A DNA stretch of 64,000 nt from Bacteroidota bacterium (GTDB lineage: Bacteria; Bacteroidota; Bacteroidia; Chitinophagales; Chitinophagaceae). The stretch lies in assembly GCA_016183765.1 (NCBI GenBank), contig JACPEA010000002.1:237832-301831 (forward strand), read 5' to 3'. The notes beneath the pieces are model-generated. The model did not search any database. It saw only the letters and a list, made by a program, of their open reading frames with translations, and had not been told where the DNA came from. Positions 37,996 through 54,073 of the stretch are shown piece by piece (within the stretch, counting starts at the first letter, position 1; each line of letters begins with the position of its first letter). The translations under genes were made by a program, and so were the position numbers.

Positions 37996-38577
37996 ATGAA
38001 AGAAGATATCATTATACAGATCAGTAACCGCCTTCGTGATCTGCGGAAAGAAAAGAATATCACTTTACAGGAACTGGCAGAAGCTGCCGGGGTTTCGAAA
38101 GGAATGCTGAGCCAGGTTGAGAACAGCCGGGCCATCCCTTCCTTGCCGGTGCTGCTGAACCTGATCAGCTCCCTGCACGTTGATTTTAATGATTTTTTCA
38201 AAGATATCAACCTGCTTACCCCCGATAGTAAAGTGATCTTCCGGAAAAAGAACGAGTACCAGCCTTTTGAGAAAGAAAATGCAGAAGGATTCTTCTACCA
38301 ACGTCTTTTTTCCACTACAGTGCATGATTATCATGTGGACTTTGTATTATTACGATTAACCCAAAATGCCCAGCGTTCACCCGTAAGTACCGATGCTTTT
38401 GAGTTCAAATACCTGATCAAAGGCAAAGTCCGTTACCAGATTGGAGAAACTTCTTATGATATGGAAGAGGGAGACTCCCTTTTTTTTGATGCAAGGGAAA
38501 CCCATAACCCCATCAATATCGGCGATACCGATGCCATACTGCTGGTGGTGTACCTGTTTCATGAACGGGTGATCTGA
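37996..38577 (+). CDS. XRE-family HTH regulator with C-terminal cupin sensor
   Basis: LRDLRKEKNITLQELAEAAGVSKGMLSQVENSRAIPSLPVLLNL HTH; cupin C-terminus (YDMEEGDSLFFDARETHNPIN). Confidence 0.93.
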   Translation: MKEDIIIQISNRLRDLRKEKNITLQELAEAAGVSKGMLSQVENSRAIPSLPVLLNLISSLHVDFNDFFKDINLLTPDSKVIFRKKNEYQPFEKENAEGFFYQRLFSTTVHDYHVDFVLLRLTQNAQRSPVSTDAFEFKYLIKGKVRYQIGETSYDMEEGDSLFFDARETHNPINIGDTDAILLVVYLFHERVI

Positions 38578-38605
38578 TAGCTTGTTTACTTAACGAATTG
38601 TTCAC

Positions 38606-38661
38606 AAAAGTTTAATATTAGTCAAAAAAATACCGATAAAACTTGTAAAAGTTTAATATTA
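38606..38661. promoter_or_regulatory. 15-bp direct repeat AAAAGTTTAATATTA (two copies)
   Basis: Exact copies at 38606-38620 and 38647-38661. Confidence 0.6.
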
Positions 38662-38662
38662 C

Positions 38663-38718
38663 TTTACTTTTCCTTAACATAAACAACATTTTTCCTTAAC
38701 ACTGTCCGGATAGTTTTG
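38663..38718 (+). promoter_or_regulatory. Pho-box-like 11-bp-period repeats and -7 element TAGTTTTG upstream of susC
   Basis: TTTACT 38663, TTAACA 38674, TTAACA 38696 (phase 11/22), then TAGTTTTG 38711-38718. Confidence 0.5.
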
Positions 38719-38746
38719 CCTTCATCAAACAACTAAAACCTTGTTT

Positions 38747-41700
38747 ATGAAGCTGAAACACATCCATTACCTGAAACGTTTATTACCACTTGCGGTAATA
38801 CTGTTTCTATCAGGTATACTGCAAGCCCAGTCTTTTCCGGTAAAGGGAAGAGTGATCGATGCGGTTAGTAAAAAACCCATTGAAGGTGCCAGTATCAACC
38901 TTTCGAATGCAAAAACCGCTACCAGTACCGATGCAGACGGACAATTCACGATCAGTGCTGCAAAGAGCAGCCAGCTGTTGATCAGTTCCGTTGGTTTTCA
39001 GACCAAAAAAGTGACTGTGTCCGCTGATGTTTTGACCATCAGCCTGGAAGCTTCAGTGAAACAACTCGATGAAGTAGTGATCACGGCATTGGGTATTAAA
39101 AAAGAAAAGAAGCTGGTAAGTTATGCCACCCAGGAGATCAAGGGAGCAGACCTGATCAAAGCGAGGGAACCCAATCCCATTAACTCGCTGGTAGGTAAAG
39201 TAGCAGGCTTGTCTGTAGGTGCTTCTGCTGAACTGCTGGGTCGCCCGCAGGTATTGCTGCGTGGTTCCAATATTGATTTGTATGTAATCGATGGTATTCC
39301 TATCAACTCGGATACCTGGAACGTTTCTCCTGACGATATCGAAAACATTACCGTACTGAAGGGACCCGTGGCATCTGCTTTATACGGATACCGTGGTCAG
39401 CGTGGTGCTATTATCATTACCACCAAAAAAGGTTCTAAAGACAAACGTGGTTATGCTATTGAGTTTAACAGCAGTACTATGATTGATAAGGGATTCATCG
39501 CCCTGCCCAGAACACAGGACCTTTACGGACCTGGCGACCATGGCAAATATTTATTTGTAGATGGTAAAGGAGGCGGTTTGAACGATGGAGACTACGATAT
39601 CTGGGGCCCTAAATTTGAAGGACAGCTGATACCTCAGTACGATAGCCCGGTGGATCCTGTTACAGGCGTACGTAAGGGAACTCCCTGGGTTGCCAGGGGA
39701 AAAGATAACCTGAAGCGTTATATCCGTACAGGTATACTTACCACCAACAACCTGTCGGTTTCGTCCAGCAATGATAAATATGATATCCGTTTCTCGCTGT
39801 CGCACTCTTACCAGAAAGGTATTGTGCCTAACACACAGCTGAACATCACCAATTTCAACATCAATACCGGTTATCGCTTTAACGATAAACTGAAACTGGA
39901 TGCACAGTTGAATTATAACCGCCAGTACACACCCAATTTCCCGGATGTGAACTATGGTCCCAACAGTATCATCTATAACATGACCCTTTGGGGTGGTGCC
40001 GACTGGAACGTAGATGATATGCGTAACTACTGGCAGCCGGGTAAAGAAGGTGTACAGAGCATTTATGCGGAGTACCAGCGTTACCACAATCCATATTTCA
40101 TGGCATATGAGTGGCTGCGCGGACATTATAAAACCGATGTGTACGGATACGTATCCTTAACACAAAAAATCGGAAATAACACAGAACTGGTAGCCAGAAC
40201 AGCAGTGACCACTTATGACGTTCTGCGTACAGAAAAAATGCCTTTCTCTGCTCACCCTTACGGAAGAGAAGAAGGACGTGGTGATTACCGTGAAGATAAA
40301 CGTAACCTGTTCGAAAACAATACTGAGCTGATGGCCAAGTACAATAACCGTTTTGGACAGATCAGCGTGAACGGTTTTGTGGGTGGTAACGTACGGAATT
40401 TTGCATACAAGTCCAGCTTTGTTACAACCGATTATCTGAATGTGCCAGGTGTGTATTCTTTTGCCAATAGCCGCAATCCTGTTAGAGCGTATAACTTTGG
40501 AAGCGATATGCGTGTGATGAGTGCTTATTACTCGTTTGATGTGTCACTGAGTAAATACTTTAACCTGAATACAACCGGAAGGGTAGATAAACTGTCAACC
40601 CTGAATGAGTCTTACTTCTATCCATCTGTTTCCGGTAATACCATCCTTTCTGATTACCTGGAAATGCCCAAAGCGATCTCTTTTCTGAAAGCCCGTGCAT
40701 CCTATGCTAATGTAAAAAGCGGTGGATCCAGTGTAACTTCCTATATCGGGGCTACTCCTAATGCGGGTTATCCGATGGGTTATGGCGCAGAATATACTTC
40801 TTCGTATGATGGACCTACCTATGGCCTGGCTACTCCGTACAATACTGCCCTTGGATATAACAACCAGCCATATGCTACCTATCCCAATAACCTGATCGAT
40901 CCGGCTATCAGTCCCGACAGCCGTACCACGGTGGAATTGGGTCTGGATATCAAGTTCCTGAAAAACCGTCTGGGCCTGGATATTGCCTATTACACCAATA
41001 TAGACGGTCCGCAGATCTATAACAAACCATTATCCCAGACCACCGGCTACAATTCTTTCATCACCAATGCGGTGAAGAACAAAACAACCGGTATTGAGAT
41101 TTCTATCAGTGGGCAGGCCATCAAGAACAAGGATTTCTCATGGGATGTGTTGCTGAACCTGAGCAAGTATCGCAGAACATTGGCCGAATTGCCTGCAGGT
41201 GTAAATGTATTGAATACGTTTTATGCAAAAGGCGACAGGCTGGATAAAGTATACGGAAGAGGTTTTGTAAGAACTGCCGATGGGCAGCTGATCAATGACG
41301 CAGGTGGCCGACCCATTGTGAATTCAGTAAGCCAGTTCCTGGGATATGCGGATCCGGACCTGGTATGGGGACTGAACAACCGCTTCTCTTACAAAAGCTT
41401 TACGTTTTCTTTCCAGTTCGATGGCCGTATTGGAGGTGTTATGGAAGATTATGTACGTAAACAGTCATTCCGTGGCGGACGTCATATCGAAACCACTGAA
41501 GGAGCAATGGGTGAAGCCCGTTACCAGGATTACCTGGGTGTGAAATCCTATGTAGGTGAAGGTGTTGCAGTGTCTAATGGAGTAGCTATCAAATATGATC
41601 CTGCCACAGGCGCGGTGACCAATTACGGTGATCTTAAGTACGCAACAAATACCACTAAGACCTTCCTGCAGGATTATATCAGCCGTTACTACAATACTTC

Positions 41701-41965
41701 AGAAGGAAATATGATCAGCAAAACCTACCTGAAACTCCGTGAAGTAGTGATTTCCTACAATATCCCTGCGGATATATTTGGTAAAAAAGGAGTTTTCAAA
41801 GCGGCTACAGTTTCGCTGGTGGGACGCAACCTGCTTTACATCATGAAAGATGGTAATCGTTACAAAGATGTGGATATAGACCAGTATGCAGGCGGACAAA
41901 CTTCCTCTAATCTGCAAACGCCTACTACCCGTCGTTATGGTTTCAACTTAAACTTAACTTTCTGA
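38747..41965 (+). CDS. SusC/RagA family TonB-linked outer membrane protein
   Basis: CarboxypepD_reg N-domain, plug domain GRPQVLLRGSNIDLYVIDGIPI, C-terminal GFNLNLTF. Confidence 0.96.
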   Translation: MKLKHIHYLKRLLPLAVILFLSGILQAQSFPVKGRVIDAVSKKPIEGASINLSNAKTATSTDADGQFTISAAKSSQLLISSVGFQTKKVTVSADVLTISLEASVKQLDEVVITALGIKKEKKLVSYATQEIKGADLIKAREPNPINSLVGKVAGLSVGASAELLGRPQVLLRGSNIDLYVIDGIPINSDTWNVSPDDIENITVLKGPVASALYGYRGQRGAIIITTKKGSKDKRGYAIEFNSSTMIDKGFIALPRTQDLYGPGDHGKYLFVDGKGGGLNDGDYDIWGPKFEGQLIPQYDSPVDPVTGVRKGTPWVARGKDNLKRYIRTGILTTNNLSVSSSNDKYDIRFSLSHSYQKGIVPNTQLNITNFNINTGYRFNDKLKLDAQLNYNRQYTPNFPDVNYGPNSIIYNMTLWGGADWNVDDMRNYWQPGKEGVQSIYAEYQRYHNPYFMAYEWLRGHYKTDVYGYVSLTQKIGNNTELVARTAVTTYDVLRTEKMPFSAHPYGREEGRGDYREDKRNLFENNTELMAKYNNRFGQISVNGFVGGNVRNFAYKSSFVTTDYLNVPGVYSFANSRNPVRAYNFGSDMRVMSAYYSFDVSLSKYFNLNTTGRVDKLSTLNESYFYPSVSGNTILSDYLEMPKAISFLKARASYANVKSGGSSVTSYIGATPNAGYPMGYGAEYTSSYDGPTYGLATPYNTALGYNNQPYATYPNNLIDPAISPDSRTTVELGLDIKFLKNRLGLDIAYYTNIDGPQIYNKPLSQTTGYNSFITNAVKNKTTGIEISISGQAIKNKDFSWDVLLNLSKYRRTLAELPAGVNVLNTFYAKGDRLDKVYGRGFVRTADGQLINDAGGRPIVNSVSQFLGYADPDLVWGLNNRFSYKSFTFSFQFDGRIGGVMEDYVRKQSFRGGRHIETTEGAMGEARYQDYLGVKSYVGEGVAVSNGVAIKYDPATGAVTNYGDLKYATNTTKTFLQDYISRYYNTSEGNMISKTYLKLREVVISYNIPADIFGKKGVFKAATVSLVGRNLLYIMKDGNRYKDVDIDQYAGGQTSSNLQTPTTRRYGFNLNLTF

Positions 41966-41984: not shown

Positions 41985-43544
41985 ATGAAAAAGATAATAA
42001 TCTGTTCATTAATGGCAGCGGTTGCTTTTACTACCGGCTGTACCAAGAAATTTGATGAGCTGAAGATAGATACCAACCGGCCTGAGAGTGTGCCGCCATC
42101 ACTGGTGCTGAGTGGGGTAGAGAATGACTTTACCCAGGGCGCCTGGACACAGACACACCGATGGAACCAGTTCAGCAACTGTAATTACAACTATTATGGC
42201 AACCAGGAATATAACTGGACCAATACATCGTTTAACCCGTACAATACACTGAAGAACATTCTGAAAATGGAGCAGGAAGCTGCCAAGATTGCTGCTGCAC
42301 AGAATCCGTATTCAGCATTGGGTAAATTTTTCCGTGCATTCTTTTATTACGACCTCACCATGCGTGTGGGCGATCTGCCGATGAACGAGGCGGTAAAAGG
42401 CCTGGAAATGAGCACGCCCAAATACAATACCCAAAAGGAAGTGTTCATCCAGGTACTGAAATGGCTGGAAGAGGCCAATGCTGATATGGCTGTATTGATA
42501 ACCGCCGGCGACAGAACCCTGGCTGGTGATTATTACTACAATAATGATCTGAAAAAATGGCAAAAAGCGATAAACGTCTTCAAATTACGCGTGCTGATCG
42601 CTTTAAGCAAAAAAGAGGCTGATACAGACCTGGCCATCAAGCAAAAATTTGCAGCAACCCTGGCTGATGCCGCAAAGTATCCTTTATTTGCCTCTATGTC
42701 AGATAACCTGCAGTATGTGTATAACAGTACATTTAACAAGTATCCTACCAGTCCGGATAATTTTGGTTTCGACGCTACCCGTTATAATACCAGCGCTACT
42801 TACCTGAATAACCTGGTGGCATTGCAGGATCCCCGTACATTCGTTACTGCGGAACCTGCTGCCAAAAGAGTGGCCGGTGGGGCAGCGCCTAATTCATTCG
42901 GCGCATTCCTGGGTGCCAGCAGTGGAGAAGACCTGGCAGATATGAGTTCAAAAGCAAACAATGGAGAGTATTCTTTTATCAACCGTAAACGTTATTACAG
43001 CACGTATACGGCAGAACCCAATATGCAGATCGGCTATCCTGAAATGTGCTTCAATATTGCCGAAGCCATTAACCGCGGATGGATTACCGGTGACGCAGAA
43101 AGCTGGTATAAGAAAGGACTTACGGCTTCCATTGCCTTTTACGGTATCGTAAACGGAAACAATACCGTGTATTTTCAAAAACCAGGCGGTACATTGAACG
43201 ATTACAACACGTACGTGATCAATTACGATGAAAACGCTTATTACAACCAGGCAACGGTGAAATATGCGGGTAATACGGCTGCAGGTCTCAACCAGATCCT
43301 GTTACAGAAATACCTGGCTTATTTCCAGAACAGTGGCTGGGAAGCTTATTATAACTGGAGAAGGACCGGTGTGCCTACTTTCCTTATAGGTCCAGGTACC
43401 GGAAACAGTCAGCGTATCGCCAAACGTTTCCTGTATCCCACATCAGAAAACGCTACCAACAAAACCAACCTGCAGGAAGCGCTGCAACGTCAGTTTACGG
43501 GTGGTGTTGATGATATCAATGCAGATATGTGGGTCATCAAGTAA
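41985..43544 (+). CDS. SusD/RagB family outer-membrane lipoprotein
   Basis: Lipobox MAAVAFTTGCTKKF; immediately after susC; SusD-like TPR fold sequence and YNWRRTGVPTF. Confidence 0.93.
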   Translation: MKKIIICSLMAAVAFTTGCTKKFDELKIDTNRPESVPPSLVLSGVENDFTQGAWTQTHRWNQFSNCNYNYYGNQEYNWTNTSFNPYNTLKNILKMEQEAAKIAAAQNPYSALGKFFRAFFYYDLTMRVGDLPMNEAVKGLEMSTPKYNTQKEVFIQVLKWLEEANADMAVLITAGDRTLAGDYYYNNDLKKWQKAINVFKLRVLIALSKKEADTDLAIKQKFAATLADAAKYPLFASMSDNLQYVYNSTFNKYPTSPDNFGFDATRYNTSATYLNNLVALQDPRTFVTAEPAAKRVAGGAAPNSFGAFLGASSGEDLADMSSKANNGEYSFINRKRYYSTYTAEPNMQIGYPEMCFNIAEAINRGWITGDAESWYKKGLTASIAFYGIVNGNNTVYFQKPGGTLNDYNTYVINYDENAYYNQATVKYAGNTAAGLNQILLQKYLAYFQNSGWEAYYNWRRTGVPTFLIGPGTGNSQRIAKRFLYPTSENATNKTNLQEALQRQFTGGVDDINADMWVIK

Positions 43545-43641: not shown

Positions 43642-43690
43642 TGCCTGCTGTTTGTATATTGGCCGGATAAAAGCATTCTTTATACGTTAT

Positions 43691-45721
43691 ATGAAACTGT
43701 TGTCTTTTTTTCTCGTTCCCCTGCTTGCTGCAGGGCAGGATCTTTCTGCACCGGAAAAAGATACCACCGGTTCACTGGTGCCTGTAGTGGTTACCGCAAC
43801 GCGTAAACTGACTGATGGATACCTGCTTCCATATTCGTATGTTGTTATCGACTCACAAACGATCCATCGATCTGGTGCCAGAACCACGCCGGAGTTATTG
43901 ATGGGTACAACAGGTGTGTTTGTGCAAAAGACCAATCATGGTGGCGGCTCGGCATTTGTAAGAGGGCTTACCGGCAACCAGGCATTGATCATGCTCGATG
44001 GGATCCGGTTCAACAATGCCACTTTTCGTTATGGCCCCAATCAATACCTCAACACCATTGACCTGTATACGATCGATAAAATAGAAGTGGTAAAAGGCGC
44101 CGGTTCCGTGCAATATGGATCCGATGCACTGGGTGGCGTGATACAGTTGTTCAGCCGCGACCTGTCTTTCGGTAAAAGATCCTTTCATGCCAAAACCTTT
44201 GCCAAAGCGGTCTCTGCCGATATGGAATATACAGGCAGGGGAGAACTTTCTTACCAGTCGAACGGGTTTGCTTTTTCTGCCGGTTATACCCAGCGCAAGT
44301 TCGGTGACCTGGTTGGAGGTGATACCACCGGCCGGCAAACGCCTTCCGGATACACAGAGCGTGCTTTTGATGCGAAGATGAAGTTCCGCCTGGGGGAGAA
44401 TACTTCTTTGTCGTTTTCTCACCAGTACGTGCGCCAGGAAGATGTGCCCCTGTATCACCGCGTCAAACTGGAGAACTATGCGTATTATTTTTTTGCGCCC
44501 CAGCAACGTTCTCTGACTTACCTGAAACTGGAAACCAAAACAAACCATCGCTGGATGGACCGGGTACACCTGATCCTGTCGGCACAGCAAAGTTTAGAAC
44601 GGAGAAACTACCTGCGTAATGGAAGTGCCAGCCGTTTTTCAGAGGAAGACAAAGTGCGTACACTGGGAGCCAGTCTTGATATAGCTTCTGTATGGAGTAA
44701 ACGATGGTATAGCAACAGCGGTATTGAATATTACCGCGATGCAGTGAATAGTGTCAAGTTTCAGCAACCTCTGGCAGGTACTGCTGTACAAACCCTGCGT
44801 GGCCTGTATCCTGATGGTTCCAGTAACCAGAGCTTTTCCCTGTACAGCCTGCACCACCTGCAGGCCGGTAGGTTCAATATGGAAGGTGGCATTCGCTACA
44901 ATACACTCGCTATCCGTATAACAGATACCAGTAAAACAACGGGTAGTCTGGGAAAAATAACCATACAACCCGCTTCCCTGGTGGTGAATATGGCATTGGG
45001 CTACCAGCTTACCCCAACCTCGCGTTTATATACCGCTTTCAGTACCGGTTACCGGGCACCTAATATCGACGATATGGGAAGTCTGGGGTTGGTTGATTTT
45101 CGTTATGAGGTGCCAGCCTACGGCTTAAGGCCGGAAAAAAGTTACCATACAGAGGTCGGATACCGGTTCAGGAATGAACGGCTATCGGCGTCCGCCGCTG
45201 TTTTTTATATGCACCTTTCAGATCTGATCACACGTGTACAGGTTCCGGGACAACAAGTGAACGGATACAATGTGTACACCAAACAGAACAGCCAGGAATC
45301 TTACCTGAAAGGAGCCGAATTTGAATTCAGATACCTGTTAACAGCTAAACTTACCTGCGAAATGGGGGGCACTTACCTGTTCAGCCAGAACCTGTCGGCC
45401 AACGAACCCATGCGGCGTATCCCGCCCGTGAATGGAAGAGTTATCCTGCGCTACCAGCGCCAGCAATGGTTCGTAGCGGTTGAAAACCTGGCTGCAGGTG
45501 CACAAACAAGACTGGCGCAGGGTGATAAAGACGATAACCGTATTCCGGCAGGAGGAACACCGGGATGGAACCTGGTGAATATGCATGCCGGATATTCTGT
45601 GAAACAGTTGAGGATACAGGCCGGCTTGCAGAATATCGCAAATGTTGATTACCGTACCCACGGAAGTGGTATTAACGGAGCGGGCAGAAATGCCTGGCTC
45701 TCTTTGCAATTCATGTTATAA
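43691..45721 (+). CDS. TonB-dependent receptor
   Basis: Start trimmed to MKLLSFFLVPLLAAGQ; plug GGGSAFVRGLTGNQALIMLDGIRFNNATFRYGPNQYLNTID; C-terminal LSLQFML. Confidence 0.95.
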   Translation: MKLLSFFLVPLLAAGQDLSAPEKDTTGSLVPVVVTATRKLTDGYLLPYSYVVIDSQTIHRSGARTTPELLMGTTGVFVQKTNHGGGSAFVRGLTGNQALIMLDGIRFNNATFRYGPNQYLNTIDLYTIDKIEVVKGAGSVQYGSDALGGVIQLFSRDLSFGKRSFHAKTFAKAVSADMEYTGRGELSYQSNGFAFSAGYTQRKFGDLVGGDTTGRQTPSGYTERAFDAKMKFRLGENTSLSFSHQYVRQEDVPLYHRVKLENYAYYFFAPQQRSLTYLKLETKTNHRWMDRVHLILSAQQSLERRNYLRNGSASRFSEEDKVRTLGASLDIASVWSKRWYSNSGIEYYRDAVNSVKFQQPLAGTAVQTLRGLYPDGSSNQSFSLYSLHHLQAGRFNMEGGIRYNTLAIRITDTSKTTGSLGKITIQPASLVVNMALGYQLTPTSRLYTAFSTGYRAPNIDDMGSLGLVDFRYEVPAYGLRPEKSYHTEVGYRFRNERLSASAAVFYMHLSDLITRVQVPGQQVNGYNVYTKQNSQESYLKGAEFEFRYLLTAKLTCEMGGTYLFSQNLSANEPMRRIPPVNGRVILRYQRQQWFVAVENLAAGAQTRLAQGDKDDNRIPAGGTPGWNLVNMHAGYSVKQLRIQAGLQNIANVDYRTHGSGINGAGRNAWLSLQFML

Positions 45722-45730
45722 ACCTGAACT

Positions 45731-46330
45731 ATGACAATACCTGATCAAGGGATCGATTCTATCGTGGATGAAGTGATTTCACTTTACGAAAGATTTGGCG
45801 GGGAGGATTATATCGGCGAGCCCGTTTCCCAGATAGAACATATGTGCCAGTGCGCGCAGCTGGCAGAAAAGGAAGGGTACGATACGGAAGTGATCCTGGC
45901 TGCTTTTTTTCACGATATTGGTCACTTGTGTGAGCATATCACTGAAGTGGAACTCATGGATGGTTACGGTGTGGTGGATCATGAGAAACTGGGAGCGGAT
46001 TACCTGCAAAAAAAAGGTTTTTCAGAAAAGATCGCCAAACTGGTAGCTTCTCATGTAGCAGCCAAAAGATACCTGACCCGACGGTATCCTGATTATTATG
46101 AACAATTATCACCCGCAAGTAAAGAAACCCTTGTATTCCAGGGTGGGGTGATGACAGAAGAAGAAGCCATCACTTTTGAGTCTGACCCACTGGCAGAATT
46201 GTATATACGGCTGCGCAGATGGGATGAGCAGGCCAAACAAGAACATATCCCGCTACCATCACTTGCACATTACCGGGCATTGATGCAGCAACATTTAACC
46301 GAACAAAGTAAAACGATCGAAAACAGATGA
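45731..46330 (+). CDS. HD-domain protein of phosphonate-degradation type (PhnZ / Phn-HD-like)
   Basis: DYIGEPVSQIEHMCQCAQLAE ... AAFFHDIGHLCEH; YxxE plus HD ligands as in PhnZ-like mixed-valent diiron oxygenases. Confidence 0.82.
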   Translation: MTIPDQGIDSIVDEVISLYERFGGEDYIGEPVSQIEHMCQCAQLAEKEGYDTEVILAAFFHDIGHLCEHITEVELMDGYGVVDHEKLGADYLQKKGFSEKIAKLVASHVAAKRYLTRRYPDYYEQLSPASKETLVFQGGVMTEEEAITFESDPLAELYIRLRRWDEQAKQEHIPLPSLAHYRALMQQHLTEQSKTIENR

Positions 46331-47013
46331 GAACAGCATTAGTTGTATTTGATATTGCAGGAACCACCGTATCCGACAAGGGCAATGTAAACCAGGCGTT
46401 CCGCAATGCACTGGCCGAAGAAAATATCCAGGTCGCAATTGAAGAAGTGAATACCCTGATGGGATACAGAAAAATAGACGCCATTATGCGAATGGTGGTA
46501 AAACATGCACCGCAGCTGACCGGTTCCGGGCAGGAAGAACGGATAAATGCGATCCATAACAGGTTTAACAGCATTATGGTTGATTTTTACCGGAATGATG
46601 CAGCCCTTGAACCACTTCCTTTTGCAGAAGAACTGTTTGCATTGTTACAGGAAAAAGGCATTAAAGTGGCTTTGAATACTGGTTTTACCCGCGTCATTAC
46701 AGACGCCATCCTGCAAAAACTGGGATGGGATAAAGCTGCCTTCATCAACACGGTGATCTGCAGTGATGAAGTTCCCGAAGGCAGGCCACACCCCTATATG
46801 ATCCAATCCATTATGCAACAGCTCGGTATTTCGGATGCCGCTAAAGTGGTAAAAGTGGGCGATACGGAAGTAGATGTGAACGAAGGAAGAAATGCCGGTT
46901 GTGGTTTGGTAGTAGCTGTTACCACCGGTGCCTACACGCGTGAACAGCTTTCTCCCTACCACCCTGATGCGATCATTGATTCATTGCAGGAATTACCTGC
47001 ACTAATTCAATAA
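46327..47013 (+). CDS. phosphonatase-like HAD hydrolase
   Basis: VFDIAGTTVSDKGNVNQAF, MGYRKIDAIM, VGDTEVDVNEGRNAGC; ATGA overlap with the HD gene. Confidence 0.88.
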   Translation: MRTALVVFDIAGTTVSDKGNVNQAFRNALAEENIQVAIEEVNTLMGYRKIDAIMRMVVKHAPQLTGSGQEERINAIHNRFNSIMVDFYRNDAALEPLPFAEELFALLQEKGIKVALNTGFTRVITDAILQKLGWDKAAFINTVICSDEVPEGRPHPYMIQSIMQQLGISDAAKVVKVGDTEVDVNEGRNAGCGLVVAVTTGAYTREQLSPYHPDAIIDSLQELPALIQ

Positions 47014-47016
47014 AAT

Positions 47017-48309
47017 ATGTTTCGTCTTCCTGGAAAAACCGGTGCTGTTTGGCAGAAAGATACCCTTGTGGCATTGTATGCCGCATTGATAACCTTTCTT
47101 ACGTATGCCACTGTATATGCATTTCGCAAACCATTTACAGTAGCTGGTTTTGAGCAGGAGCCCATGGTTTTTGGGATCCATTACAAAGATGCACTGGTGA
47201 TCAGCCAGGTGTTGGGTTACATGATGAGTAAGTTTTACGGTATCCGTTTCATTTCGGAGCTTAAAAAAATAGGTAGGGGAAAGGTCATACTGTTACTGGT
47301 GGCTGTTTCCTGGCTGGCTTTGTTGTTGTTTGCCTGGGTGCCGGCACCCAGGAATGTCGTATTCCTTTTTATCAACGGGTTCCCGCTGGGAATGATCTGG
47401 GGCGTTATCTTTTCTTATGTGGAAGGAAGGAAAGCCACCGACTTCATAGGAGCGGCACTGGCGGTAAGTTTTATCTTTTCTTCCGGTTTCGTAAAATCGG
47501 TGGCCAAATGGCTGCTGATCGACTTCTCTATAACGGACCAGTGGCTGCCTTTTGCTACCGGGCTGGTATTCCTCATCCCGCTCTTGCTGTTCGTGTTTCT
47601 GCTGGAGCGTATTCCGCCGCCGTCGGAGTCGGATATACAATTGAGGGTTTCCCGGGAACCCATGAACCGGCTTGAAAGAAAACAGTTTTTCAGGAAGTTC
47701 AGTACGGGTATTGTATTGCTGATACTGATCTATGTGTTCCTTACCCTGTTCAGGGATATCCGCGATAACTATGCCGCTGATATGTGGAAAGAACTGGGTT
47801 ATGGAAGTCAGCCTTCCGTATTCACCGCAACTGAGATACCCATCACCATTGCCGTGCTGGCCCTGATCAGTAGCATGATGCTGATCAGGAATAACAGAAA
47901 GGCTTTTGTTGTTACACACTGGATCATTGTGGCCGGATTCCTGGTAGCAGGGGTAAGCTCCCTGTTATTTGTATCAGGGATATTACCCCCTTTTGCGTGG
48001 ATGACATGGGTAGGGATGGGGTTATATATGGGGTATATCCCTTTTAACTGTATCCTCTTCGACAGGATGATCGCCACTTTCCGGCAAAGCGGCAACGTGG
48101 GCTTCCTGATGTACCTGGCCGATTCTTTCGGCTACCTGGCCAGTGTGGCAGTCATCGTTTCTAAAACCATTTTCAATCCCAGTTTGTCCTGGACAACTGT
48201 TTACAGCAACGGCGTTATCCTGCTCTCTGTTGCAGGTATTGCTGCCACTTTTTTTGCATTGGGTTATTTCAATAAAAAATATGCTCTCTTATTTAATCAG
48301 CAACTATGA
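47017..48309 (+). CDS. DUF5690 family MFS-like membrane protein
   Basis: 430 aa, ~12 TM; TYATVYAFRKPFTVAGFE, GFPLGMIWGVIFSYVEGRKATDFIGAALAVSF. Confidence 0.88.
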   Translation: MFRLPGKTGAVWQKDTLVALYAALITFLTYATVYAFRKPFTVAGFEQEPMVFGIHYKDALVISQVLGYMMSKFYGIRFISELKKIGRGKVILLLVAVSWLALLLFAWVPAPRNVVFLFINGFPLGMIWGVIFSYVEGRKATDFIGAALAVSFIFSSGFVKSVAKWLLIDFSITDQWLPFATGLVFLIPLLLFVFLLERIPPPSESDIQLRVSREPMNRLERKQFFRKFSTGIVLLILIYVFLTLFRDIRDNYAADMWKELGYGSQPSVFTATEIPITIAVLALISSMMLIRNNRKAFVVTHWIIVAGFLVAGVSSLLFVSGILPPFAWMTWVGMGLYMGYIPFNCILFDRMIATFRQSGNVGFLMYLADSFGYLASVAVIVSKTIFNPSLSWTTVYSNGVILLSVAGIAATFFALGYFNKKYALLFNQQL

Positions 48310-49433
48310 AGCAGCAATCAGCCATCGTGATCGGGGCCGGTATTGTGGGATTGGCCACAGCCAGGGCACTTGCCTTACAGGGATATGGTGTAACCGTGAT
48401 CGAACGAACAGAAAAAGCCATTGGGGCGTCTATCCGAAATTTTGGTATGGTATGGCCCATTGGGCAACCCGATGGAAAATTATACAACCGTGCTTTGCGA
48501 AGCCGGCAGATATGGAAGGAGATCGCAGACAGCATCGGCCTTTGGTACGAAGAAGCTGGTAGCCTGCACGTAGCCACCGAAACAGATGAATGGCAGGTAT
48601 TGCAGGAGTTGCACCATCATTTCTCCGGTAATGGAAGAAATACGCAACTGTTATCGACGGAGCAGATCAGCCAAAAATTTTCCGGCATACAGACACAGAG
48701 ATTGCTGGGCGGTTTGTACAGCGATACCGAACTGATTGTAGACCCCCGCGAAGCCATCTCGTCTATACCCGCTTACCTGGAAGAATATTTAGACGTAACT
48801 TTTCTCTGGCAAAAACAGGTGAACCGGGTAGAAACCGACCGGGTATACCTTGGGCAGCAGGTACTGCAGGCAGACCTCATATGCATTTGCAGCGGCGCCG
48901 ATTTTGAGACCCTGTATCCTGAAATATTCGCAAACACAGACATTACCAGGTGTAAACTGCAGATGTTGCGTTATCTTTCGGATAAGGCAGATCAACGTAT
49001 CGGCACTTCGGTATGTGGTGGTTTGTCGCTGATCCATTATCATAGTTTTCAGTCGGCACCCTCATTACCCGCACTGAAAAAAAGATATGAAACAGAAATG
49101 ACCGAATACCTGAAATGGGGTATCCATGTCATGGTTTCGCAAAACAGCGGGGGAGAACTGACCGTTGGTGACTCACATGAATATGGACACACGCTGGATC
49201 CATTTGACCGGGCAGAAATCAATCGGCTGATCATGGATTATTTGGACCGATTTATGATCACTGAGGACTGGAAACTGGTACAGTCATGGAATGGCATCTA
49301 CCCCAAAATGACAAATGGACAAACAGAAGTACTGCTGAATCCCGAGCCGGGAGTATATATCCTGAATGGTTTGGGTGGGGCAGGTATGACACTTTCTTTC
49401 GGATTGGCAGAAGAGTTTGCTGCCGGTCTCTGA
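48306..49433 (+). CDS. FAD-dependent oxidoreductase, TIGR03364-like (phosphonate cluster associated)
   Basis: AIVIGAGIVGLATARALALQGYGVTVIERTEKAIGASIRNFGMVWPIGQPDG; NGLGGAGMTLSFGLAEE; ATGA overlap with DUF5690 gene. Confidence 0.9.
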   Translation: MKQQSAIVIGAGIVGLATARALALQGYGVTVIERTEKAIGASIRNFGMVWPIGQPDGKLYNRALRSRQIWKEIADSIGLWYEEAGSLHVATETDEWQVLQELHHHFSGNGRNTQLLSTEQISQKFSGIQTQRLLGGLYSDTELIVDPREAISSIPAYLEEYLDVTFLWQKQVNRVETDRVYLGQQVLQADLICICSGADFETLYPEIFANTDITRCKLQMLRYLSDKADQRIGTSVCGGLSLIHYHSFQSAPSLPALKKRYETEMTEYLKWGIHVMVSQNSGGELTVGDSHEYGHTLDPFDRAEINRLIMDYLDRFMITEDWKLVQSWNGIYPKMTNGQTEVLLNPEPGVYILNGLGGAGMTLSFGLAEEFAAGL

Positions 49434-49460
49434 TTAATGGATCATTTTATAATCCCGAAT

Positions 49461-51896
49461 ATGAAAAAAATAAGTTTTGTTGTAATGGTCTGTTGTTTTG
49501 CAGTTATCCGTCTGCATGCACAAAGTCTTGCCTCTTTGGAGGCAAAGAGGATCGGTCTTCCCAATGGCTGGAGCCTGACACCGGTAGGCAAGTCGTTACC
49601 GTTGGGTGACCTGCCGTTGAACATGGCCGTTTCGCCTTCCCAAAAATTACTGGCCGTAACCAATAACGGGCAAAGTAAACACAGTCTGCAATTGATCGAT
49701 GTGGTTACTGAAAAAGTACTGGACCATCTGGAACTGCCCAAAGCCTGGGTAGGACTGGAGTTCAGTTTGGATAACAGGTTCCTGTACGTATCTGGCGGCA
49801 ATGATAACCGTATCTGGAAATATGCAGTCGGTAACCGGAAGTTTTTGCTGGCAGACAGTATTGTGTTAGGCAAAGCCTGGCCTGAAAAGATTTCACCTAC
49901 CGGGCTGACCATCGATCAAGATAAACAAGTCATGTATGTGGTTACCAAAGACAATAACCGTTTGTACGTGATCGACCTGGTAACCAAACAGGTCAAAAAA
50001 GAACTGGCATTGCCCGGTGAAGCGTACACCTGCCGCCTCTCGCCTGATAAAAAGGAGTTGTACATCTCTTGCTGGGGCTGCTCCAGGATATTGATATATG
50101 GCGTAACAGAGCATATGATCCTGTCGGAGATTGCGGTGGGCAGTAATCCCAACGATTTCTGCATTACCGCCAACGGGCGTTGGTTGTATGTGGCTAATGC
50201 CAACGATAATTCCGTATCGGTGATCGATACCAAACAGCGTAAAGTGGCGGAAACACTCAATGCGGCCCTGTATCCTGATGCGCCTACGGGTTCCACTACC
50301 AATGGCGTGGCCCTGAGCAGTGATGAAAAAACGCTGTACATCGCCAATGCCGATAATAACTGCCTGGCGGTATATGATGTGAGTCAGAAAGGAAGCAGTG
50401 TGTCGAAAGGATATATTCCTGTGGGTTGGTATCCTACTGCCGTAAAGACCATCGGCTCTAAAATATATGTGACAAACGGAAAGGGTTTTACCTCGCAGGC
50501 CAACCCGTTTGGTCCTAATCCCATCAGTAAGAAGATTCAGCTTGGTTTTCAGAAAGGAGATACTTCCAAACCCAGGGAAGTGCAATACATCGGCGGCCTG
50601 TTTAAAGGAACCCTGAGCATATTGCCAGTTCCTTCGGCCAGCCAGTTGAGCGTGTATTCGCAGGCGGTTTACCGGAATTCACCTTACAGTAAAACCAGGG
50701 AACTGGTGTCGCATGATGCTATCGGCAACCCCATCCCCCGGAAAGTGGGAGATTCTTCTCCCATTAAATATGTGTTTTACATCATCAAGGAAAACCGTAC
50801 CTACGACCAGGTATTGGGCGATATGCCCGAAGGCAACGGGGATAGTTCGCTTTGTTTGTTCGGAAGAAAAATAACTCCCAACCAGCATGCATTGGCCAAA
50901 GAGTTTGTATTGCTGGATAATTTCTATGTTGACGGAGAGGTCAGCGCCGATGGCCATAACTGGAGCATGGGCGCTTACGCTACGGATTACCTGGAAAAAA
51001 CCTGGGTGACCAGTTATGGTGGCCGCGGAGGTAATTATGATGCGGAAGGTAACCGCGCCATCGCCAACAACAAAAATGGTTTTATCTGGGATCATTGCAA
51101 ACGGGCCGGTGTAAGTTACCGGACCTACGGTGAGTTCGCCGATGATTACAAGCCCAATATCCCGGTATTACAGGATCATTTTTGCCCGTATTACACCAGC
51201 TGGGATGAAAGCGTACGCGATACAACCCGCGTAGGTCAATGGAAAAGGGATTTTGATTCATTGCTTGCCAACAATGCCTTGCCCAGGTTAAGCACCCTGC
51301 GCCTGATCAACGATCATACCGAGGGACTGCGTTTGGGAAGACCAACACCTTTTGCCCATGTGGCGGATAACGACCTGTCGGTTGGTATGTTTGTAGAATA
51401 CCTGAGCAAAAGCCCTATCTGGAAAGAAAGCGTGGTATTCATCCTGGAAGATGATGCACAGGATGGCCCCGATCATGTAGATGCACACAGGAGTCCGGCT
51501 TATGTGGCAGGAGGTCTGGTGAAAAGGGGATTTGTGGATCATACCATGTATTCCACTTCGTCCATGCTGCGAACCATTGAACTGATACTGGGTATCCCAC
51601 CCATGAGCCAGTACGATGCGGCAGCCACACCCATGTGGCGCTGTTTTACCAATGAAGTGAACCTGACACCATTTACAGCAAGACCAGCAGGAGTGGACCT
51701 GAACGAAAAAAATACCGGAATGAATGAATGGCAGCGGAAAAGTGAAGCTTTTGATTTTTCAAAAGAAGACCGTATTCCGGACCGCGCATTTACAGAAGTG
51801 ATCTGGAAAGCGGTAAAAGGATTGGATGCGGTTGTGCCTGCACCTAAAAGAGCCGCTTTTGTAAAACTGAATACGAAAGACAGGGATGGAGATTAA
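49461..51896 (+). CDS. bifunctional YncE-like beta-propeller / alkaline phosphatase superfamily protein
   Basis: N-terminal 7-bladed propeller repeats (LYVANANDNSVSVIDTKQRKVAETL) and C-terminal phosphoesterase (IKENRTYDQVLGDMPEGNGDS, FILEDDAQDGPDHVDAHRSPAYV). Confidence 0.9.
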   Translation: MKKISFVVMVCCFAVIRLHAQSLASLEAKRIGLPNGWSLTPVGKSLPLGDLPLNMAVSPSQKLLAVTNNGQSKHSLQLIDVVTEKVLDHLELPKAWVGLEFSLDNRFLYVSGGNDNRIWKYAVGNRKFLLADSIVLGKAWPEKISPTGLTIDQDKQVMYVVTKDNNRLYVIDLVTKQVKKELALPGEAYTCRLSPDKKELYISCWGCSRILIYGVTEHMILSEIAVGSNPNDFCITANGRWLYVANANDNSVSVIDTKQRKVAETLNAALYPDAPTGSTTNGVALSSDEKTLYIANADNNCLAVYDVSQKGSSVSKGYIPVGWYPTAVKTIGSKIYVTNGKGFTSQANPFGPNPISKKIQLGFQKGDTSKPREVQYIGGLFKGTLSILPVPSASQLSVYSQAVYRNSPYSKTRELVSHDAIGNPIPRKVGDSSPIKYVFYIIKENRTYDQVLGDMPEGNGDSSLCLFGRKITPNQHALAKEFVLLDNFYVDGEVSADGHNWSMGAYATDYLEKTWVTSYGGRGGNYDAEGNRAIANNKNGFIWDHCKRAGVSYRTYGEFADDYKPNIPVLQDHFCPYYTSWDESVRDTTRVGQWKRDFDSLLANNALPRLSTLRLINDHTEGLRLGRPTPFAHVADNDLSVGMFVEYLSKSPIWKESVVFILEDDAQDGPDHVDAHRSPAYVAGGLVKRGFVDHTMYSTSSMLRTIELILGIPPMSQYDAAATPMWRCFTNEVNLTPFTARPAGVDLNEKNTGMNEWQRKSEAFDFSKEDRIPDRAFTEVIWKAVKGLDAVVPAPKRAAFVKLNTKDRDGD

Positions 51897-52856: not shown

Positions 52857-52906
52857 TTCATAGTAGCTTAACCTTTCGATAACTTTTGCTTAACCCGTTG
52901 TTCATG
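52857..52906. promoter_or_regulatory. Pho-box-like 11-bp-period direct repeats in divergent GT2 / phosphatase intergenic region
   Basis: TTCATA 52857, TTAACC 52868, ATAACT 52879, TTAACC 52890, TTCATG 52901: five units in exact 11-bp phase. Confidence 0.5.
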
Positions 52907-52948
52907 TTGCGGATATAGTGACAGGGTTTCTTTGTAAAACCCTTTGGC

Positions 52949-54073
52949 ATGAAACCCGTTATCGTAGTCTTATTTTGTCTTTTGGGTGTACGCTCCGTTG
53001 CCCAGTCTGCTGCTCCCCGTAATGTCTTTATCATTACCACCGATGGTTTCCGCTGGCAGGAAGTATTCCGGGGAGCCGATTCATTACTGATCAGGGATAC
53101 GGCCTGTGTAAAAGACACAACCCTGCTCTGTCAGCAGTTCTGGAGCGACGATCCGGAAGAGAGAAAACGTAAGTTGCTTCCCTTTTTCTGGAATGTGATA
53201 GCACAGAAAGGCAGGTTATCAGGTAACCGCAGTTATGGCAGCGAAGTAAATGTGGCCAACCTGTACAAAATATCATATCCGGGATACAATGAAATACTTA
53301 CGGGGTATGCCGATACACGTTTCATTCCCAATCTTACCGTTCGCAACCGAAATACCAATATCCTGGAGTACCTGAATACTACGGAAATATATGCCGGTAA
53401 AGTAGTCGCATTCAGTTCCTGGAACCTGATGCCTTATATCCTGGCAGAGAACAGGAGTGGTTTACCGGTGAACAGTGGCTACGAAATGCTGGAAGAGGGA
53501 GATGACACATTGAATATTCTGATTAACGAAGTGCAGAAAAATGTAGTGCATAAGGGCAATACCCGCCAGGACCTGCTAACCTATGCCAGTGCCAAAAATT
53601 ACATTGAGCAGCAACATCCCAAAGTGGTTTTTCTGGGTTTGGGCGAAACGGATGAATATGCGCACAAAGGGCATTACGACCAGTACCTGCAAAAAGCCCA
53701 CCAGGTAGACAGAATGCTGGCTGAACTGTGGTACTATGTTCAAACAGATCCTTTTTATAAAGACAATACGGTGTTCCTGATCACGACCGACCACGGAAGG
53801 GGCAGCAAAAGAAACAAGTGGAGACAGCATGGTTTCTGGGTGAAAGGCTCAGGCGAGGCCTGGATGGCCATGATTGGTGCGGGCATTGCTTCTGAAGGTG
53901 AAATAAAAACAGAAGAGCGTTTGTACCAGAAGCAGATCGCTTCTACCGTTTCGTTGTTGTTGAATGAGAAGTTCGAAGCACCCGATCATACGGTGGCCGA
54001 ACCACTGAAACTAATCACGAACGCGGTAGCGGCTGGGCAACAGCATTCCAAAACTGTTTCAGTAAATAAATAA
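52949..54073 (+). CDS. secreted alkaline phosphatase superfamily (phosphoglyceromutase/sulfatase-like) protein
   Basis: Signal peptide; NVFIITTDGFRWQEVFRGAD, LGETDEYAHKGHYDQYLQ, FLITTDHGRG metal-binding motifs. Confidence 0.9.
   Translation: MKPVIVVLFCLLGVRSVAQSAAPRNVFIITTDGFRWQEVFRGADSLLIRDTACVKDTTLLCQQFWSDDPEERKRKLLPFFWNVIAQKGRLSGNRSYGSEVNVANLYKISYPGYNEILTGYADTRFIPNLTVRNRNTNILEYLNTTEIYAGKVVAFSSWNLMPYILAENRSGLPVNSGYEMLEEGDDTLNILINEVQKNVVHKGNTRQDLLTYASAKNYIEQQHPKVVFLGLGETDEYAHKGHYDQYLQKAHQVDRMLAELWYYVQTDPFYKDNTVFLITTDHGRGSKRNKWRQHGFWVKGSGEAWMAMIGAGIASEGEIKTEERLYQKQIASTVSLLLNEKFEAPDHTVAEPLKLITNAVAAGQQHSKTVSVNK

Follow-up and report, generated by a model that had tools for sequence, protein, structure and literature searches.

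The direct repeats of 11-bp period upstream of the susC-like gene in this window (the whole 64,000-nucleotide stretch analysed here) very probably form a true "Pho box," a switch thrown by phosphate starvation, since relatives carry the same repeats, equally far from the promoter, at their phosphate-transport genes. A second regulator, an XRE-cupin protein, very probably shares this promoter with Pho control. We have good confidence in the explanation as a whole: a PhoB-bound Pho box driving a phosphonate operon, with the XRE-cupin protein as a second control. Coordinates below are those of the window unless a locus or contig is named, and all of its genes, boxes and promoters described here are on the + strand.

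The predicted proximal Pho box (38652..38706) has units at 38652 (TTTAAT), 38663 (TTTACT), 38674 (TTAACA), 38685 and 38696 (TTAACA), and thus holds at least two direct repeats at an 11-bp period. An earlier note on this DNA had described the last four as an 11-bp grid, and we found its elements where it had placed them: the three clear hexamers, the degenerate unit at 38685 (AACATT), the 12-mer TTTTCCTTAACA repeated exactly at 38668 and 38690, and TAGTTTTG at 38711-38718, 9 nt past the end of the last hexamer. The fifth unit, at 38652, was absent from that note and reads GTAAC or TTAAC in several orthologues. Read from the sequence, TAGTTTTG is a -7 element of the Bacteroidota TAnnTTTG type; it starts 15 bp after the start of unit 38696 and lies in a conserved column block of the orthologue alignment.

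Of the exact direct repeats in the 168-bp intergenic region, it is not the 12-mer but the 15-bp AAAAGTTTAATATTA, at 38606 and 38647, that is longest. When the region was resampled (order-1), exact repeats of at least 12 bp arose in 1.3% of resamples and of at least 15 bp in 0.1%; long exact repeats are by themselves uncommon and only moderately improbable; the weight comes from conservation and from an independent matrix. Phylogenetic footprinting of the intergenic region in about 20 orthologous loci, the nearest named relatives being Sediminibacterium and other Chitinophagaceae (rows L024-L026 of the alignment were disregarded), showed the grid to be gap-free up to the -7 element across genera. 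Its units there are, in order, [CG]TTTAC, [CG]TTAA[CT], a weaker unit mostly ending in AAC (the one that is degenerate in the window lineage) and nTTAAC or nTAACA. The region is A/T-rich, which together with the 1.3% of resamples favors the idea that promoter DNA of this composition looks repetitive by chance; conservation across genera, and the first rank given to the site by the independent matrix described below, make that idea extremely improbable.

The earlier note had proposed a literal search for TTAACA-N5-TTAACA near pst/pho genes of the same genome, and this failed: there is not one exact match in that genome. Nor could its own pst genes serve as a test, since the Na/Pi cotransporter, PhoU and OprO/P porin families were all absent from it; without PhoU there is probably no pst operon there to check. 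Because PhoU was in fact missing from all 41 genomes of the genus that we searched, the present one included (13 of 14 control genomes were positive), we turned to the pst operons of other genera. The training set comprised 18 promoters of porin-pstSCAB-phoU operons in Chitinophagaceae, all from genera other than that of the window, with the register of the sites set by eye.

These promoters carry tandem units of consensus TTAACATT at an 11-bp period (for example TTAACATTAAA, TTAATATGGGC, GTAACATAGCC and GTAATATCTGG), with 15 or 26 (15+11) bp between the last clear unit and the -7 element; the TTAACA unit, the period and the fixed distance to the core promoter are common to them and to the susC promoter. 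The motif thus lies upstream of pst operons of the lineage in 18 of the 19 promoters inspected in other genera. The remaining one (L113) had no clear box, and the box of L106 is weak, with its octamer out of register. No box was found directly upstream of pstS, since the porin gene precedes pstS and the promoter sits before the porin. A three-unit matrix derived from the pst promoters alone ranked 38674 (+ strand) first of 127,936 window positions, at 15.6 bits with the next site at 8.0; no maximum as high arose in 60 simulated windows of 64 kb, while 0.1% of 5000 simulations of promoter composition reached it. Both the motif with its phasing in other genera and this ranking support the Pho-box reading.

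With a matrix made of one pooled unit repeated three times, the top five sites of the window fell at just two promoters: 38590 and 38674 at susC, and 52857, 52868 and 52879 further downstream, with 38674 in fourth place after 38590, 52857 and 52868. The first of these (rank 1, 14.9 bits) marks a predicted distal Pho box (38590..38622; TTAACG at 38590, TTCACA at 38601, TTAATA at 38612), a three-unit array that the earlier note did not have; 11-bp units of the distal box also occur in L004, L005, L007, L008, L012, L016, L024 and L025. The second promoter (predicted box 52857..52911) has units at 52857, 52868, 52879, 52890 and 52901 and is also a match to the pattern used on the whole genome. A -7-like TTTCTTTG at 52927, 26 bp from the start of its last unit, is in phase (promoter region 52857-52934), and a metalloenzyme/alkaline-phosphatase superfamily protein (52949..54073; PF01676, PF01663) is encoded 3' of it.

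Across the whole genome, the Pho-box pattern was found 9 times against 6 for a reversed-pattern control, a modest excess. In a matrix scan of 156.5 kb, every site of at least 7 bits lay at one of six promoter regions, a regulon-like set: susC, the gene at 52949, a plcP-glycosyltransferase pair, two TonB receptors and the phoB intergenic region. The plcP and TonB-receptor regions had entered the scan because of their pattern matches and so are not independent evidence, while the phoB region was included on account of its regulator. PlcP and its glycosyltransferase carry out a known lipid remodelling under phosphate starvation. The box of this pair (L190 5933-7839, G000:C15), which points to phosphate-starvation lipid remodelling in Sediminibacterium, is kept in two relatives, and in three relatives the pair directly follows pst-phoU. 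PlcP is also in the low-phosphate list of Flavobacterium (PMC8115612).

The genome encodes six OmpR-type regulators, a family that commonly binds tandem repeats of about 11 bp, so the repeats might instead be bound by a member unrelated to phosphate; the Riemerella anatipestifer regulator with a TTTAACA core was itself compared to ArcA by its authors (PMC9603813). Among the six regulator regions scanned, however, a Pho-box match was present only at the PhoB-like gene and in none of the other five; the susC motif and spacing are identical to those of pst promoters, and boxes stand at plcP and at the phosphatase-superfamily gene, all of which makes another OmpR-type regulator very unlikely. The PhoB-like regulator (G000:C1:95113-95799) has PhoB as its best NCBIfam match (227 bits against a cut-off of 296, scored over the full length). 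The kinase downstream of it matches PnpS/PhoR best, likewise below the equivalog cut-off, and shares 61-63% identity with the kinases that adjoin pst-phoU in two relatives. This PhoB/PhoR-type two-component pair, together with the boxes at other genes of phosphate-starvation type, again supports the Pho-box reading.

Canonical Pho signalling through PstSCAB-PhoU is not what we found, since PhoU is absent, and in a genus without PhoU the signal cannot take the textbook Pst/PhoU route. PhoBR nevertheless appears to work here. The phoB-phoR-like genes adjoin genes for a DUF47 (PhoU_div) protein and a Pit transporter (L124 1860-5799, G000:C1), and phosphate may perhaps be read via this Pit-DUF47 pair.

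What the susC promoter would control makes phosphate regulation sensible: the colinear genes downstream of it are, by their domain content, a phosphonate-utilisation operon, and phosphonate catabolism in the operon is a further support for the Pho box. The susC-like TonB-linked outer membrane protein (38747..41965; TIGR04056, 456 bits, cut-off 368) is followed by a susD-like lipoprotein (41985..43544; PF12771), a TonB-dependent receptor (43652..45721; PF00593, PF07715), a phosphonate-degradation HD-domain oxygenase of PhnZ/TmpB type (45731..46330; TIGR03276, 227.5 bits, above the cut-off of 214.6) and a PhnX-like HAD hydrolase (46327..47013; TIGR03351, 207.9 bits, just below the cut-off of 218.9). 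Then come a DUF5690 membrane protein (47017..48309; PF18943), a candidate inner-membrane transporter, an FAD oxidoreductase of the HpnW type associated with phosphonatase-like genes (48306..49433; TIGR03364, 427 bits, above the cut-off) and a beta-propeller and phosphoesterase-family protein (49437..51896; PF10282, PF04185). The ORF caller begins susC itself with the TTG at 38741; a likelier start is the ATG at 38747, which stands in the conserved context TTTATGAAG. With TIGR03276, TIGR03351-like, TIGR03364 and phosphoesterase proteins clustered around a SusCD pair, the locus has the make-up of "PusCD-type" clusters. In Flavobacterium, such SusCD-like pairs are induced on phosphate depletion, and some of their clusters, like this one, include phosphonate-degrading enzymes; Flavobacterium belongs to a different family, and promoter, Pho box and XRE-cupin regulator are not mentioned in the text (PMC8115612).

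The gene upstream of the repeats encodes the XRE-cupin transcriptional regulator (37996..38577; Pfam HTH_3 and Cupin_2), a candidate pathway-specific regulator that adjoins phosphonate genes across Chitinophagaceae; our literature searches found nothing on XRE-cupin regulators with phosphonate. Its predicted operator is a 17-bp inverted repeat, GTTTA-N7-TAAAC (here GTTTAATATTAGTCAAA, 38610..38626), which is conserved in orthologues and overlaps the last unit of the distal Pho box. Of 42 XRE-cupin loci, 15, among them loci with other downstream genes, have the exact repeat, against 0.09 in shuffles, and it is likely to be the operator of the adjacent regulator. The repeat starts about 101 bp from the -7 element in Sediminibacterium-type loci; elsewhere the distance is about 90 bp, shorter by one 11-bp unit, with L011 (130 bp) as the exception. 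With one mismatch allowed, we saw no genome-wide enrichment of the repeat (103 against 126 in the control). We also considered 38651-38667 as a second XRE-cupin operator and dropped it, as the alignment fits Pho units 38652 and 38663 better.

The letters of this operator raise a further alternative, in which it is the neighboring XRE-cupin regulator, and not PhoB, that uses the 11-bp units as half sites: the right half of GTTTA-N7-TAAAC is similar to TWWAC units, the regulator gene adjoins the grid, and operator-like matches (up to two mismatches) also lie inside it. Yet pst operons that do not adjoin this regulator have identical 11-bp units in the same phase with the -7 element, such units also precede plcP and lie beside phoB in the genome of the window, and several relatives (for example L048) keep the 17-bp repeat without an evident grid. 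We regard half sites of the XRE-cupin regulator as unlikely, and PhoB as the probable ligand of the grid.

Exact GTTTA-N7-TAAAC matches number only six in the genome; two of them (L189 6126-6142 and 9993-10009, G000:C10) each precede the Pho box of a TonB-receptor gene by about 28 bp, and G297 (L132) retains one of these two. The two receptor genes may also be targets of the XRE-cupin regulator. Distant homologues of the regulator (about 50-53% identity) adjoin other phosphonate- or phosphatase-type genes (L041, L045, L047, L048 and similar loci). In several of these loci GTTTA..TAAAC-like repeats overlap a TAnnTTTG-like promoter or lie just downstream of it, a placement that suggests repression by the homologues there.

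Combined, these elements would work as follows. On phosphate starvation, the PhoR-like kinase would phosphorylate the PhoB-like OmpR-family regulator, encoded elsewhere in the genome, which would then bind head-to-tail on the TTAACA-type half sites, 11 bp apart, just 5' of the TAnnTTTG -7 element. Bound PhoB would recruit RNA polymerase to the susC promoter, whose -33 region is weak, and so switch on an operon for phosphonate uptake and degradation: SusC, SusD, the TonB receptor, the PhnZ-type oxygenase, the PhnX-like hydrolase, the HpnW oxidoreductase and others. The XRE-cupin protein would supply a second, substrate control, probably sensing phosphonate and acting at GTTTA-N7-TAAAC about 101 bp upstream of the -7 element. 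We infer from sequence the binding of PhoB, the response to phosphate, activation, and the ligand and sign of action of the XRE-cupin regulator. Since the two operator distances differ by one 11-bp unit and the operator overlaps the distal Pho box, we tentatively propose, as a possibility we consider doubtful, a phase-locked "AND gate" at the susC promoter: bound to one helical face, PhoB (for low phosphate) and the XRE-cupin protein (for phosphonate) would act together, under a PhoBR that works without Pst/PhoU, perhaps via Pit-DUF47.

The direct repeats that make up a Pho box are 11 nt long, with a consensus that differs from species to species (PMC4415409). Like those of E. coli PhoB and B. 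subtilis PhoP, also OmpR-family regulators as is the PhoB-like candidate here, the susC box consists of head-to-tail 11-bp direct repeats 5' of a predicted phosphate-starvation promoter; it differs in its unit (TTAACATT, not CTGTCAT) and in an array of 3 to 5 units phased to a TAnnTTTG -7 element and not to a sigma-70 -10. Cyanobacterial SphR binds at least three tandem CTTAACCT units with 3-bp linkers, nearly the unit and period seen here, in a different phylum, promoter type and set of target genes (PMC1906773). Closer by phylum is the PhoB/PhoP-type PhoP of Riemerella anatipestifer (Bacteroidota), whose DAP-seq motif core TTTAACA is nearly that of the susC units; its context is virulence, and the available part of the paper states neither a tandem array nor a link to phosphonate genes (PMC9603813). 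Text searches of the literature found no described Bacteroidota Pho box, which is not proof that there is none.

What emerges is a testable Pho-box model for a large Bacteroidota family: tandem TTAACATT units at an 11-bp period, 15 bp from TAnnTTTG. It links a cis-element to phosphate-regulated SusCD systems that were previously known from proteomics, and it offers a bacterium in which PhoBR appears functional without PhoU, as well as a promoter at which a general control by phosphate appears to join one specific to phosphonate.
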